Positions 2,324 to 36,995 of a stretch of 64,000 nt of DNA are shown piece by piece (the first letter of the stretch is position 1; each line of letters starts with the position of its first letter). This stretch comes from Clostridiales bacterium DTU070. GTDB lineage: Bacteria > Bacillota > Clostridia > DSM-8532. The notes below the pieces were generated by a model, which was not told where the DNA came from, made no database searches, and saw nothing but the letters and a program-made list of their open reading frames with translations. Both the position numbers and the translations under genes were made by a program. The stretch lies in the NCBI GenBank assembly GCA_001513105.1, contig LFSH01000072.1, forward strand, positions 5,646-69,645, read 5' to 3'.

Positions 2324-2354
2324 AATAAAAATATTGAATGTCAGGAGAATCTGT

Positions 2355-3809
2355 ATGTCCGTTGTTCGAACCCGTTATGCTCCAAGCCCTACAGGTTATA
2401 TCCATATAGGGAATTTGCGATCCGCACTGTATGAGTATCTCATTGCCCGTGTCAACGGCGGCAAGTTTATTCTGCGTATAGAAGATACCGACCAGGAACG
2501 CCTTGTTGAAGATGCGGTGGATGTTATATACCGCACTTTAAAGATATGCGGGCTGAAGCACGATGAAGGCCCGGATATAGGCGGCCCCTATGGTCCATAC
2601 ATTCAAAGCCTGCGTAAGGACCTGTACCTTCCCTATGCAGAGGAGCTTGTAAGAAAAGGTCACGCATATTATTGTTTCTGCTCAAAGGAAAGGCTGGAAG
2701 CCCTTCAGAATCAGTACAAGGAAAGGGGCGAGGTTTTCCGGTACGACCGTCACTGCCTTGGATTGCCCGAGGAAGAGGTAAGAAGAAGACTTGAAGCAGG
2801 CGAGCCTTACGTAATACGCCAGAAAATGCCGACAGAAGGCACCACAACATTCCATGACGTGGTCTATGGTGAAATAAGCGTTGAAAACAGCGAGCTGGAG
2901 GACCAGATACTTATTAAGTCCGATGGCTATCCGACCTATAATTTTGCCAATGTCATAGATGATCACCTGATGAAGATAACACATGTGGTGAGGGGTTCGG
3001 AGTATTTGTCATCCACGCCTAAGTATAATCTTCTTTACGAGGCTTTCGGGTGGGAAATACCTACTTACGTGCATCTGCCGCTGATTGTAAAGCCTGACGG
3101 TTCAAAAATTTCAAAACGCAAAGGCGACGCCACCTTTGAGGACCTTTTGGCAGAAGGCTATCTCGTGGAAGCCATTATAAACTACCTCGCCCTTCTTGGG
3201 TGGTCGCCCGACAGCAACCAGGAGATTTTCAGCCTCAGTGAGCTTGAGAAAATATTCTCGATCGAGCGGATCAGCAAATCTCCTTCGGTTTTTGATATGG
3301 CGAAGCTGCGCTGGTTTAACGGTGAATACATTCGTGCCATGTCTGTTGAGGATTTCCATGAAATTGCACTGCCCTGGATTAAAAAGAGCCTTGAAAAGGA
3401 CCTGCCCACCCTTCCTATTGCACGGATGATCCAGCCGCGTACCGAGGTCCTGTCAGAAATACCCGGAAAACTTGGCTTTTTCAATCGCCTCGAGGATTAT
3501 GACCTGGAAATATACACCCATAAAAAGATGAAAACAGATCCGGAGGTTTCGCTGAGAAGCCTGAAAGCTGCAGTCCCGGTCCTGGAAAGTCTTCCTGAAT
3601 GGAATGAAAAGAGTATTTATGATGCGCTGATGGCACTTGTTGAAGAACTTCAGATTAAAAGCGGGCAGATGTTCTGGCCTGTAAGAATAGCTGTTTCAGG
3701 TCAGCTTGTGACTCCGGGCGGCGCTGTTGAAATAGCCGAGGTCCTCGGCAGGAAGGAAACACTGAGACGAATCAATATCGGTATTGAAAGGCTGTCTGCG
3801 GTGGTATAA
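2355..3809 (+). CDS. gltX: Glutamyl-tRNA synthetase
   Basis: A class I aminoacyl-tRNA synthetase of 484 residues that charges tRNA-Glu in the cytoplasm. In organisms using GatCAB it often also mischarges tRNA-Gln, but discrimination cannot be judged here. The HIGH-type motif HIGN is at residues 16-19 after SPTG, and the KMSKS-type motif KISKRKG is at 251-257. Cysteines 107 and 109 with HC at 133-134 resemble the zinc-binding insert seen in some GluRS. The ATG at 2355 follows AGGAG closely. The in-frame TTG at 2334 has no ribosome site. A tRNA-Glu gene converges on its 3' end. No T-box leader is visible upstream. Confidence 0.96.
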   Translation: MSVVRTRYAPSPTGYIHIGNLRSALYEYLIARVNGGKFILRIEDTDQERLVEDAVDVIYRTLKICGLKHDEGPDIGGPYGPYIQSLRKDLYLPYAEELVRKGHAYYCFCSKERLEALQNQYKERGEVFRYDRHCLGLPEEEVRRRLEAGEPYVIRQKMPTEGTTTFHDVVYGEISVENSELEDQILIKSDGYPTYNFANVIDDHLMKITHVVRGSEYLSSTPKYNLLYEAFGWEIPTYVHLPLIVKPDGSKISKRKGDATFEDLLAEGYLVEAIINYLALLGWSPDSNQEIFSLSELEKIFSIERISKSPSVFDMAKLRWFNGEYIRAMSVEDFHEIALPWIKKSLEKDLPTLPIARMIQPRTEVLSEIPGKLGFFNRLEDYDLEIYTHKKMKTDPEVSLRSLKAAVPVLESLPEWNEKSIYDALMALVEELQIKSGQMFWPVRIAVSGQLVTPGGAVEIAEVLGRKETLRRINIGIERLSAVV

Positions 3810-3891: not shown

Positions 3892-3963
3892 TGACCCCAA
3901 GGGGATTCGAACCCCTGTTACCGCCGTGAGAGGGCGGCGTCTTAACCGCTTGACCATGGGGCC
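3892..3963 (-). tRNA. tRNA-Glu(CTC)
   Basis: On the minus strand the acceptor GGCCCCA pairs with TGGGGTC, with discriminator A. The anticodon stem CCGCC/GGCGG holds loop CTCTCAC with anticodon CTC (plus-strand GAG at 3928-3930). The T arm contains GGTTCGAATCC. CCA is not encoded. It lies 66 bp beyond the addA stop and tail-to-tail with the gene for its own synthetase, gltX. Confidence 0.93.
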
Positions 3964-33711: not shown

Positions 33712-35178
33712 TCATTCATGGAACAGCCTTTCCAGTTCTTCGAAAATCAGCCGGTTGACAATGCCAGGGGACGCCTTACCGCCCGTTTTACGCATGACCT
33801 GGCCTATTAAAAAACCTATTGTCTTTTCTTTTCCGTTTCTTATATCTTCAACGGCTTTCGGATTCTCTTCTAAAACCTGTATAATCACTTTCCGGATCTC
33901 TTCTGTATCATTTATAACCCGAAGCCCTTTTTCCTCAATAATTTCAGCAGGATCCCTGTTTGTATCCCACATGACTACAAACACCTGCTTGGCTATTTTC
34001 CAGCTGATAATACCAGAATCGGTGAGCTCAACAAGTTTCGCAAGGTTTTCAGGACTTACCGGTATATCCGATACTTCAATATTACTTTCATTCAGCTTCT
34101 TCGAAATATCACCCATCAGCCAGTTGCATACGGCCCTATGATTCCTGCATCTTTTTGCCGCCTCCTCAAAATAGTCGGACAATTGTTTTGAGCCTGTTAT
34201 GAAATCCGCATCATATGCGGGAAGTTTATATTCCAAAACAAAACGTTTCTTCTTTTCATCGGGCAGTTCCGGGAGAGATGATTTGATTTCATTCAGCCAC
34301 GCGTCATCAATGACTATCGGGCAAAGATCCGGGTCAGGGAAAAACCTGTAATCATCGGCCCCTTTTTTCTCTCTCATCGGATAACTTACTCCCCTTGCGT
34401 CATCCCATCTCCTTGTTTCCTGGCGGACTGACCGGCCTTTTTCAAGTTCTTCGGCCTGCCTTTTTGCTTCATATTCCACGGCCCTGACGATTGCCCTGAC
34501 AGAGTTCAGGTTCTTAATCTCGGTGCGGTTTCCGAAGGTACTTTCGCCCCTTCGCCTTACCGACAGGTTTATATCCACCCTTAGCGAACCTTCCTGCATT
34601 TTGCAGTCGCAAACGCCGGTGTACTCAAGTATTGTTTTCAGTTTCAGTATAAATGCCCTGACTTCCTCCGAAGAACCAAGATCGGGGGCGGTGACAATTT
34701 CAATCAGCGGCACTCCGCTGCGGTTATAGTCTACAAGAGAATACTTCCCGGATTCATCGTGAATAAGTTTCCCTGCATCCTCTTCGATATGGATTCCCCT
34801 AATTCCTACTTTTTTCGCAGACATGTTAACCTCTATTTCCAGGAAGCCGCCGGTGCACAAGGGCAGGTTGTGCTGGGAGGCCTGGTAACCCTTCGGCAGA
34901 TCGGGATAGAAATAGTGTTTCCTGTCCTGCCGGGAATACCGGATTATGCTGCAGTTAGTCGCAAGCCCTGCCTTTATGGCATACTCCACTGCTTTCCTGT
35001 TCAGAACGGGCAAAGCCCCGGGCATGCCTGTGCAGACAGGGCAGCATTGGGTATTCGGTTCTGCTCCGAACTCTGTTTTGCAGCCGCAGTACATTTTGGT
35101 ATTAACAGCAAGTCCGGCATGAACCTCCAGGCCAATAACAGCTTCATATTCGGTTTGCCTGATATTTAAGCCTTTCAT
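33712..35178 (-). CDS. gatB: Asp/Glu-tRNA amidotransferase subunit B
   Basis: GatB is the kinase-like subunit that activates Glu-tRNA(Gln) or Asp-tRNA(Asn) and receives ammonia from GatA. The protein has 488 residues. The metal and active-site segment VIGLEVHA (about 14-21) and EEDAGK are present. The CxC...CPVC zinc motif (CGCKTE...CCPVC) and a C-terminal YqeY-type helical tail are intact. The ATG at 35178, eight bases after GGTGG, is preferred over GTG at 35190. It is 46 bp downstream of gatA. Unlike GatA, it looks catalytically complete. Confidence 0.9.
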   Translation of the reverse strand: MKGLNIRQTEYEAVIGLEVHAGLAVNTKMYCGCKTEFGAEPNTQCCPVCTGMPGALPVLNRKAVEYAIKAGLATNCSIIRYSRQDRKHYFYPDLPKGYQASQHNLPLCTGGFLEIEVNMSAKKVGIRGIHIEEDAGKLIHDESGKYSLVDYNRSGVPLIEIVTAPDLGSSEEVRAFILKLKTILEYTGVCDCKMQEGSLRVDINLSVRRRGESTFGNRTEIKNLNSVRAIVRAVEYEAKRQAEELEKGRSVRQETRRWDDARGVSYPMREKKGADDYRFFPDPDLCPIVIDDAWLNEIKSSLPELPDEKKKRFVLEYKLPAYDADFITGSKQLSDYFEEAAKRCRNHRAVCNWLMGDISKKLNESNIEVSDIPVSPENLAKLVELTDSGIISWKIAKQVFVVMWDTNRDPAEIIEEKGLRVINDTEEIRKVIIQVLEENPKAVEDIRNGKEKTIGFLIGQVMRKTGGKASPGIVNRLIFEELERLFHE

Positions 35179-35224
35179 AAATAAAGCCACCGTCGTTTAT
35201 TATTTTTAAACTGTAAGTCAACAC

Positions 35225-36685
35225 TTAACATATCACATCGAAAGGTTTATCAAACCGGGTGTTCTTCTCAAAGGCATGCGCAGCTTTTAACAGTGTTCCC
35301 TCGTCAAAGGGTTTGCCGATGAGCTGAAGACCTGTCGGAAGCCCTTTGCTGTCGGTTCCGTTTGGTACCGAGATCGCGCAAAACCCGGCAATGTTCGCCG
35401 CTACGGTGTATACATAGCTCATATGCATCCCGATGGGATCATCGGCTTTTTCTCCTGCTCTGAATGCAGTCACGGGAACCGTCGGGCAAACAATTATGTC
35501 AACCTTATCAAACGCTTTTTCAAAATCTTCGGTAACCAGGCGCCTTGCTTTCAATGCTTTTTTATAGAAAGAATCATAACAGTCCCTGCCTGTAAAATAA
35601 GTTCCGAGCATGATTGTTCTTTTAACCCCGAAGCCGAACCCTTCGCTCCTGGTTTTTTTGTATAAATCCCCTGCATCCGGATAATGTTCCGCCCTGTAAC
35701 CATACCTGATGCCGTCATATCGGCCAAGGTTCGAGGCGGCTTCAACTGAAGACAATATGTAATATGCACTAACGGCGTATTCGGTCATAGGAAAGGAAAC
35801 CTCCTCCACAACGGCCCCCATCGATTCAAATACCTTTAATGCTTCAAACAGTCTTTGCCTTACATCTGCCTGAATCCCGGTTCCGATATATTCCTTCGGC
35901 AGGCCCATCCTGATTCCTTTTATATCGTTATTAAGAAATACCGTGTAATCCGGGTGCCTGGATTTAGCAGAAACTGAATCCTTAGGGTCATGACCCGCTA
36001 TGGCATTTAACACAACTGCCGCATCTTCAACACTACGGGTTATCGGACCTATCTGCTCGAAGGACGATGCAAAGGCAATAAGCCCATATCTTGAAACCAG
36101 GCCGTAAGTCGGCTTTAACCCCACAACCCCGCAAAAGGATGCAGGCTGCCTTAACGAACCACAGGCATCCGAGCCAACGGCAAAACATGCCATATTAGCT
36201 GCAACCGCTGCGGCGGCACCACCGTTTGAACCGCCCGGGACCCTTTCAAAGTCCCATGGATTTTTTACAGGCCCGTAATATGAATTTTCATTCGAATTTC
36301 CTGCCGAGAACTCGTCCATGTTGAGTTTACCCAGAAGAACTGCGCCGCTGTTTCGCAGTTTCTCACTAACGGTTGAATCATAGGGTGGTATAAAGTTGTG
36401 AAGCATTTTAGACGCACATGTGGTTAAAACACCGCGGGTTACGATATTATCAGCAAGCGCCGCCGGGATTCCCGCCAACGGAAGATTCTCTCCGGTATCC
36501 AGTTTATTCTGTATGTCTTCCGCCCTTTTTTCACAGTCCTCCCGGCAGACCGTAATATAGGCACCTATTGTTTTGTTCAGGTTTTCAATCTGGTCAAGGT
36601 ATGCACTGACAAGTTCGGCAATGCCAATCTCTTTGCCTTTTATTTTTTTCAATGTTTCACTGACTGTTAACCGGGTAAGTTCCAA
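35225..36685 (-). CDS. gatA: Asp/Glu-tRNA amidotransferase subunit A, active site degenerate
   Basis: GatA is an amidase-signature enzyme that releases ammonia from glutamine through a Lys-cisSer-Ser triad. The 486-residue length and overall sequence fit, but key residues differ from the family consensus. The catalytic-lysine motif IKDN reads LADN, with Ala78 encoded GCT. GGSSGGSA reads GGSNGGAA (Ser153 retained, then Asn154 and Ala157). DTGGS reads DACGS (nucleophile Ser177 retained). The LNDIYT segment with the glutamine-binding Asp reads MSYVYT. The TTG at 36685 follows GGAG by ten bases, 16 bp after gatC. Glutaminase activity is doubtful; this may be a paralogous complex. Confidence 0.85.
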   Translation of the reverse strand: MELTRLTVSETLKKIKGKEIGIAELVSAYLDQIENLNKTIGAYITVCREDCEKRAEDIQNKLDTGENLPLAGIPAALADNIVTRGVLTTCASKMLHNFIPPYDSTVSEKLRNSGAVLLGKLNMDEFSAGNSNENSYYGPVKNPWDFERVPGGSNGGAAAAVAANMACFAVGSDACGSLRQPASFCGVVGLKPTYGLVSRYGLIAFASSFEQIGPITRSVEDAAVVLNAIAGHDPKDSVSAKSRHPDYTVFLNNDIKGIRMGLPKEYIGTGIQADVRQRLFEALKVFESMGAVVEEVSFPMTEYAVSAYYILSSVEAASNLGRYDGIRYGYRAEHYPDAGDLYKKTRSEGFGFGVKRTIMLGTYFTGRDCYDSFYKKALKARRLVTEDFEKAFDKVDIIVCPTVPVTAFRAGEKADDPIGMHMSYVYTVAANIAGFCAISVPNGTDSKGLPTGLQLIGKPFDEGTLLKAAHAFEKNTRFDKPFDVIC

Positions 36686-36701: not shown

Positions 36702-36995
36702 TCAGATTTCTTCGATAATTTTCGGCACCGCAAAACAGCCGTTTACTGTCTCGGGTGCGTTACTGAGCAGTTCCTCCCGTTTCAGCGGGTCACTTTCGTT
36801 ATCATCGCGGAATACATTTGTTATATCAGACACATGTACCATCGGTTCTGTGTTTCGGGTATCAAGGCCCGAGAGTTTTTCAGCAAGGTACTGCGATATG
36901 TTCCTGATGTCATTGAACAACTTTTCGGCTTCAATATCCGAGAGACTTAATGCTGCCATATTAGTCAACTGTTTTAATTCTTCATGGTTCTTCAT
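36702..36995 (-). CDS. gatC: Asp/Glu-tRNA amidotransferase subunit C
   Basis: GatC, 97 residues, wraps around the GatA-GatB interface and stabilises the complex. The NMAALSLSDIEAEK helix, the HVSDITNVFRDD segment and the ending NAPETVNGCFAVPKI match the family. The ATG at 36995 follows GGGGTGG. It is first in gatC-gatA-gatB. Upstream are 540 bp of repeat-bearing intergenic DNA. Confidence 0.92.
   Translation of the reverse strand: MKNHEELKQLTNMAALSLSDIEAEKLFNDIRNISQYLAEKLSGLDTRNTEPMVHVSDITNVFRDDNESDPLKREELLSNAPETVNGCFAVPKIIEEI

Follow-up and report, generated by a model that had tools for sequence, protein, structure and literature searches.

A GatCAB operon with a dismantled GatA glutaminase site in Clostridiales bacterium DTU070 and its proposed use of free ammonia

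The gatCAB operon and the active site of GatA

The window, a 64,000-nucleotide stretch of contig LFSH01000072.1 of Clostridiales bacterium DTU070 (genome G000), contained gatC (36702..36995), gatA (35225..36685) and gatB (33712..35190), all on the minus strand. The place and frame of gatA, which lies between gatC and gatB in one operon and encodes 486 aa from a TTG start, were confirmed. The NCBIfam profile search matched GatA to TIGR00132 at 586 bits (cut-off 481), GatB to TIGR00133 at 580 bits and GatC to TIGR00135 at 78 bits, the latter two also above cut-off; as equivalog family members encoded in a single operon, the three were assigned to GatCAB. GatB was full length, with the GatB_N and GatB_Yqey domains (PF02934, 397 bits; PF02637, 179 bits), and departed at 14 of 150 columns invariant in the partners of intact GatAs, a count at the upper end of that for the intact GatBs themselves (0–14). 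GatB and GatC had been called intact in a preliminary description of this DNA, and as full-length family members they bore this out.

GatA was aligned to S. aureus GatA (2df4), whose catalytic positions we take from established family knowledge. A78, S153, S177 and Y424 corresponded to K79, cis-S154, the nucleophile S178 and D425, respectively. The catalytic Lys position was occupied by Ala78 (codon GCT, 36452..36454, minus strand). The segment at 36155..36229 (minus strand) retained cis-Ser153 (TCA) and the nucleophile Ser177 (TCG), and carried N154 (AAC), A174 (GCC) and C175 (TGT). Further along the minus strand, the glutamine-pocket residues Glu354 and Arg358 were replaced by G353 and T357 (ACA) (35615..35629), and the glutamine-binding Asp425 by Tyr424 (TAT, 35414..35416). 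In S. aureus numbering, the changes were K79A, S155N, T175A, G176C, E354G, R358T and D425Y. The Lys-cisSer-Ser triad was thus incomplete, with both serines kept, and none of the glutamine-binding residues E354, R358 and D425 was retained. In yeast GatFAB, D418 and R334 bind glutamine and its gamma-carbonyl is recognised by E330 (PMC4027206); by numbering offset, these residues were equated with D425, R358 and E354.

The alignment agreed with the preliminary description on the lost lysine, the two remaining serines, the change of DTGGS to DACGS and the lost aspartate, and added R358 and E354 to its altered positions. Its reading of GGSSGGSA to GGSNGGAA held in part: Asn154 belongs to the damage, whereas Ala157 does not, because intact GatAs of relatives (G019 and the intact copies of genus g3) carry the same change. 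Taken together, the loss of the lysine and of the pocket residues suggested, as had been proposed, that the site encoded at 35225–36685 cannot plausibly hydrolyse glutamine. Bacterial GatCAB (S. aureus 2df4/3ip4, Aquifex 3h0l) has the same subunits, domain order and operon, and GatA and GatB aligned with it end to end; in contrast to those enzymes, the complex of the window would not be expected to use a glutamine donor. AlphaFold prediction of GatA from an 8-row alignment gave a mean pLDDT of 53, too poor to use.

All 26 intact GatAs agreed at 93 columns, and G000 GatA departed at 14 of these, more than chance would explain; intact GatAs in a leave-out test (n = 7) departed at 0–4 of the invariant columns. 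In G025, the independent genome of a congener, the Lys was replaced by Ser and D425 by Asn, and A174, C175 and T357 were as in G000. Between G000 and G025, GatA shared 76% identity (gatA dN/dS 0.12–0.13) and GatB 73% (gatB dN/dS 0.09–0.11). Sequencing error was ruled out by the same state in G025, and a pseudogene by the open frame and a dN/dS of about 0.12. Purifying selection acts on GatA and GatB of G000 and G025. The divergence of GatA and GatB between these genomes was about 3 times that of GluRS; the corresponding ratio for intact neighbours was 1.1–1.6 (G019–g3 pairs) and 1.4–2.6 (GatA only, other intact pairs). This fast divergence may reflect loosened constraint or re-optimisation.

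Routes to Gln-tRNA and Asn-tRNA in the genome

GatA was the sole amidase-family protein of the G000 assembly (99.95% complete), and one GatB/GatE-type protein was present. The PF00749 search for class-Ic Glu/Gln synthetases returned one protein, a GluRS (2334..3809, plus strand, converted from contig C6), which is presumed to be non-discriminating; a tRNA-Glu (CTC) gene lay at 3892..3963 on the minus strand. GlnRS was not found in this draft, the best match to its model being GluRS itself at 65 bits (cut-off 425.8). The tRNA-Gln (UUG), located by a loose sequence-pattern search, has a U1-A72 pair. The signs of the indirect Gln-tRNA(Gln) pathway in the draft were therefore the single GluRS, this tRNA(Gln) and no detected GlnRS; the U1-A72 pair is not discriminating, since the GlnRS-bearing G024 has it too. 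The anticodon domains of GluRS in the genus were alike with or without GlnRS, with no clear difference. Across 30 long ORFs in the window, 2.47% of the codons specified Gln, so that Gln-tRNA(Gln) is required in bulk.

PF00152 matches in G000, named by sequence reading, were AspRS, LysRS, AsnRS and AsnA, with AsnRS matching TIGR00457 at 647.6 bits. Because AsnRS and the ammonia-dependent AsnA are present, Gln-tRNA(Gln) is the only product for which GatCAB can be required. The searches for a second gatCAB, GlnRS and AsnRS that the preliminary description had proposed thus yielded AsnRS and neither of the others. It had also argued that, if this were the only copy, amidation of tRNA-Gln and tRNA-Asn must proceed in an unexpected way; this stood for Gln and fell for Asn.

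GatA in the order and the class

A tree of 33 genomes of the order, constructed with the active-site columns removed, required five or more transitions between an intact and a dead GatA. Dead GatA occurred in (i) the genus of the window (G000, G025 and G024); (ii) genus g3, in which one of two gatAB copies has Lys replaced by Asn or Ser and the other is intact; (iii) G004, G008, G012, G020 and G021, with a GatA of 375–376 aa beside a second AspRS; (iv) G006 (cis-Ser to Leu, Ser to Glu); and (v) G011 (Ser to Gly). Related lineages thus appear to have lost the site repeatedly, ending in the shortened GatA beside AspRS.

Genes for an LCP protein and an M16-like peptidase flanked gatCAB in G000, G025, G024, G019, G015 and G016. 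These shared flanks and the tree indicate that the gatCAB of the window is syntenic with, and by vertical descent orthologous to, the intact operons of sister genera, including the one in G019. The operon had been taken for a paralogue, a reading that the single copy, the tree and the synteny ruled out. GlnRS was not detected in G019 (99% complete), nor in G025 (98% complete), which has one GatA. In the congener G024, GlnRS was present and the GatA nucleophile Ser was replaced by Asp. In the closed congener G026, GlnRS was not detected, and gatCAB was intact, of a different lineage and adjoined AspRS. In the drafts G015, G028 and G029, GlnRS was recognised even though its gene was split. In the drafts G020, G021 and G022 (75–91% complete), the GlnRS model search gave no GluRS or GlnRS match.

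Saad et al. are said to have reported, in 2012/2013, an AspRS2-gatCAB T-box operon for Clostridium acetobutylicum. A like arrangement, AspRS beside gatCAB, was found in G004, G008, G012, G020, G021, G026 and others, while the genome of the window lacks such an operon. Different from the C. acetobutylicum operon, GatA of G004, G008, G012, G020 and G021 is shortened and without catalytic motifs. These genes (L094 2237-3367, L095 2835-3965, L096 4925-6052, L097 5907-7151 and L098 5009-6139), in operons downstream of the second AspRS, encode neither the GGSSGGS motif nor the N-terminal region, and the one in G008 has a longer start; Lys is replaced by Asp or Glu and the nucleophile Ser by Lys or Arg. 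With a dN/dS of about 0.11–0.15 the shortened GatA is conserved, and its complex is possibly an ammonia-dependent Asp-tRNA(Asn) amidotransferase.

AspRS-gatC-gatA-gatB operons with intact GatA (L092 in G026 and L101 in G016) were very similar across genera, and the GatA/GluRS divergence ratio of G026–G027 was 0.36, which suggested horizontal transfer of the operon. A T-box lay upstream of it in G026. The two gatAB copies of genus g3 (L103 4626-10999, L100 1487-8004, L104 and L105) are in tandem in G015 and G016; AsnRS was not detected in the two-copy genomes, and the intact and Lys-less copies are perhaps divided by substrate. A fourth gatA of G016 (L102 2455-3915), adjoining a full-length gatB, has an in-frame stop (369 + 93 aa) and is likely a pseudogene.

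Across 391 genomes of the class, the pattern GIPxxxXDN, with the codon for X not A-initial, matched in 12 genomes. Eight of the matches were GatAs adjoining gatB, namely that of the window and seven more, which fall in a further four families (f5, f50, f54 and f85). This count is a lower bound, as the pattern does not match a replacement by Asn (AAY), any other codon that begins with A, or variant sequences. GlnRS was present in 5 of the 7 genomes outside the family of the window; a second GatA, its motif intact, was present in G151, and in G321 (82% complete) neither GlnRS nor an intact second GatA was found. The Lys-to-Ala GatA of G298 lies in a single-contig genome, so fragmented assembly does not account for the Lys-less state. 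GatA decay recurs in the class, mostly where another Gln-tRNA route exists. G000 and G025, both drafts, are the clear cases without a detected alternative route.

Source of the amide nitrogen

The apparently sole GatCAB is predicted to be glutamine-dead and no GlnRS was found, so Gln-tRNA is probably built with free ammonia. Of the three possibilities raised beforehand (free ammonia, another donor or a new role), free ammonia fits best. The favoured reading, which we regard as probable, is that a vertically inherited Glu-tRNA(Gln) GatCAB lost its glutaminase and now takes ammonia from solution. GluRS would charge tRNA(Gln) with Glu, GatB would use ATP to phosphorylate the side chain of that Glu, and the phosphate would then be displaced by ammonia; GatA would persist as a structural scaffold and tunnel wall. 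The GatB step is proposed because its domains are retained and because a related enzyme has published ammonia-driven activity: yeast GatFAB transamidates with NH4Cl when its glutaminase is bypassed, and N-terminal deletions of GatF reduced the glutaminase while NH4Cl transamidation was retained or raised (PMC4027206). Those deletions were engineered, whereas the loss in the window is natural. NadE, an ATP-dependent amidotransferase with no glutaminase part, reportedly draws on free ammonia in vivo (PMC3376133). The likeness lies in ammonia use, reported there in vivo and proposed here from sequence; the substrates are unrelated, and NadE has no glutaminase domain while the GatCAB of the window keeps a dead one. 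Ammonia-dependent amidation also occurs elsewhere in the G000 genome, through AsnA. The stronger form of this reading, an essential natural glutamine-independent GatCAB that makes all Gln-tRNA from free ammonia with GatA as scaffold only, has about an even chance of being correct.

The main rival, considered unlikely although with some weight, is that GlnRS was missed through an assembly gap or extreme divergence; GatCAB would then be unneeded for Gln-tRNA, and decaying or in a minor role such as repair of mischarged Glu-tRNA(Gln), the glutaminase having decayed first. G024 fits this well, since a GlnRS and a GatA without nucleophile occur together within the genus, as do the Lys-less genomes outside the family, five of seven with GlnRS and a sixth with an intact second GatA. 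Most Lys-less genomes have one or the other, so GatA usually decays once it is no longer needed. GatA and GatB also evolved faster than GluRS between G000 and G025, and in these drafts a GlnRS could sit in unassembled DNA. However, it went undetected in both, at 99.95% and 98% completeness, while even split GlnRS genes were picked up in other drafts; the closed G026 lacks it as well, and the GatA and GatB ORFs remain full length with a dN/dS of about 0.1.

That GatCAB is still glutamine-fed, by a recruited glutaminase supplying ammonia in trans, is improbable. Separate glutaminase subunits do occur in other amidotransferase families, as in the T. thermophilus NAD synthetase with its two subunits (PMC3376133), but the amidase-family search of G000 returned no second GatA or other amidase, and the operon, flanked as in intact relatives, has gained no new gene. 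Residual amidase activity through the Ser-cisSer pair, or another amide donor in the remodelled pocket, is very improbable: both serines are kept in G000 and G025, but the general-base lysine is gone and the pocket has R358T and D425Y. Parallel lineages, moreover, lost differing parts, including the nucleophile (Asp in G024, Glu in G006, Gly in G011), a pattern more readily explained by loss of function than by a new activity common to them all.

In published accounts GatCAB depends on glutamine and has an ammonia tunnel and two sites that are coupled. The literature searched yielded no naturally glutaminase-dead GatA and no description of free-ammonia Gln-tRNA synthesis by a natural GatCAB. 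A gatA annotation, even by a curated model far above its cut-off, is no proof of a glutamine-dependent pathway. If the use of free ammonia is true, the existence in nature of a conserved GatCAB that is glutaminase-dead and apparently the only copy would mean that the enzyme can do without the coupling in vivo. It would offer natural material for separating the structural from the catalytic role of GatA, and the decoding of Gln codons would be tied to the ammonia supply of the cell.
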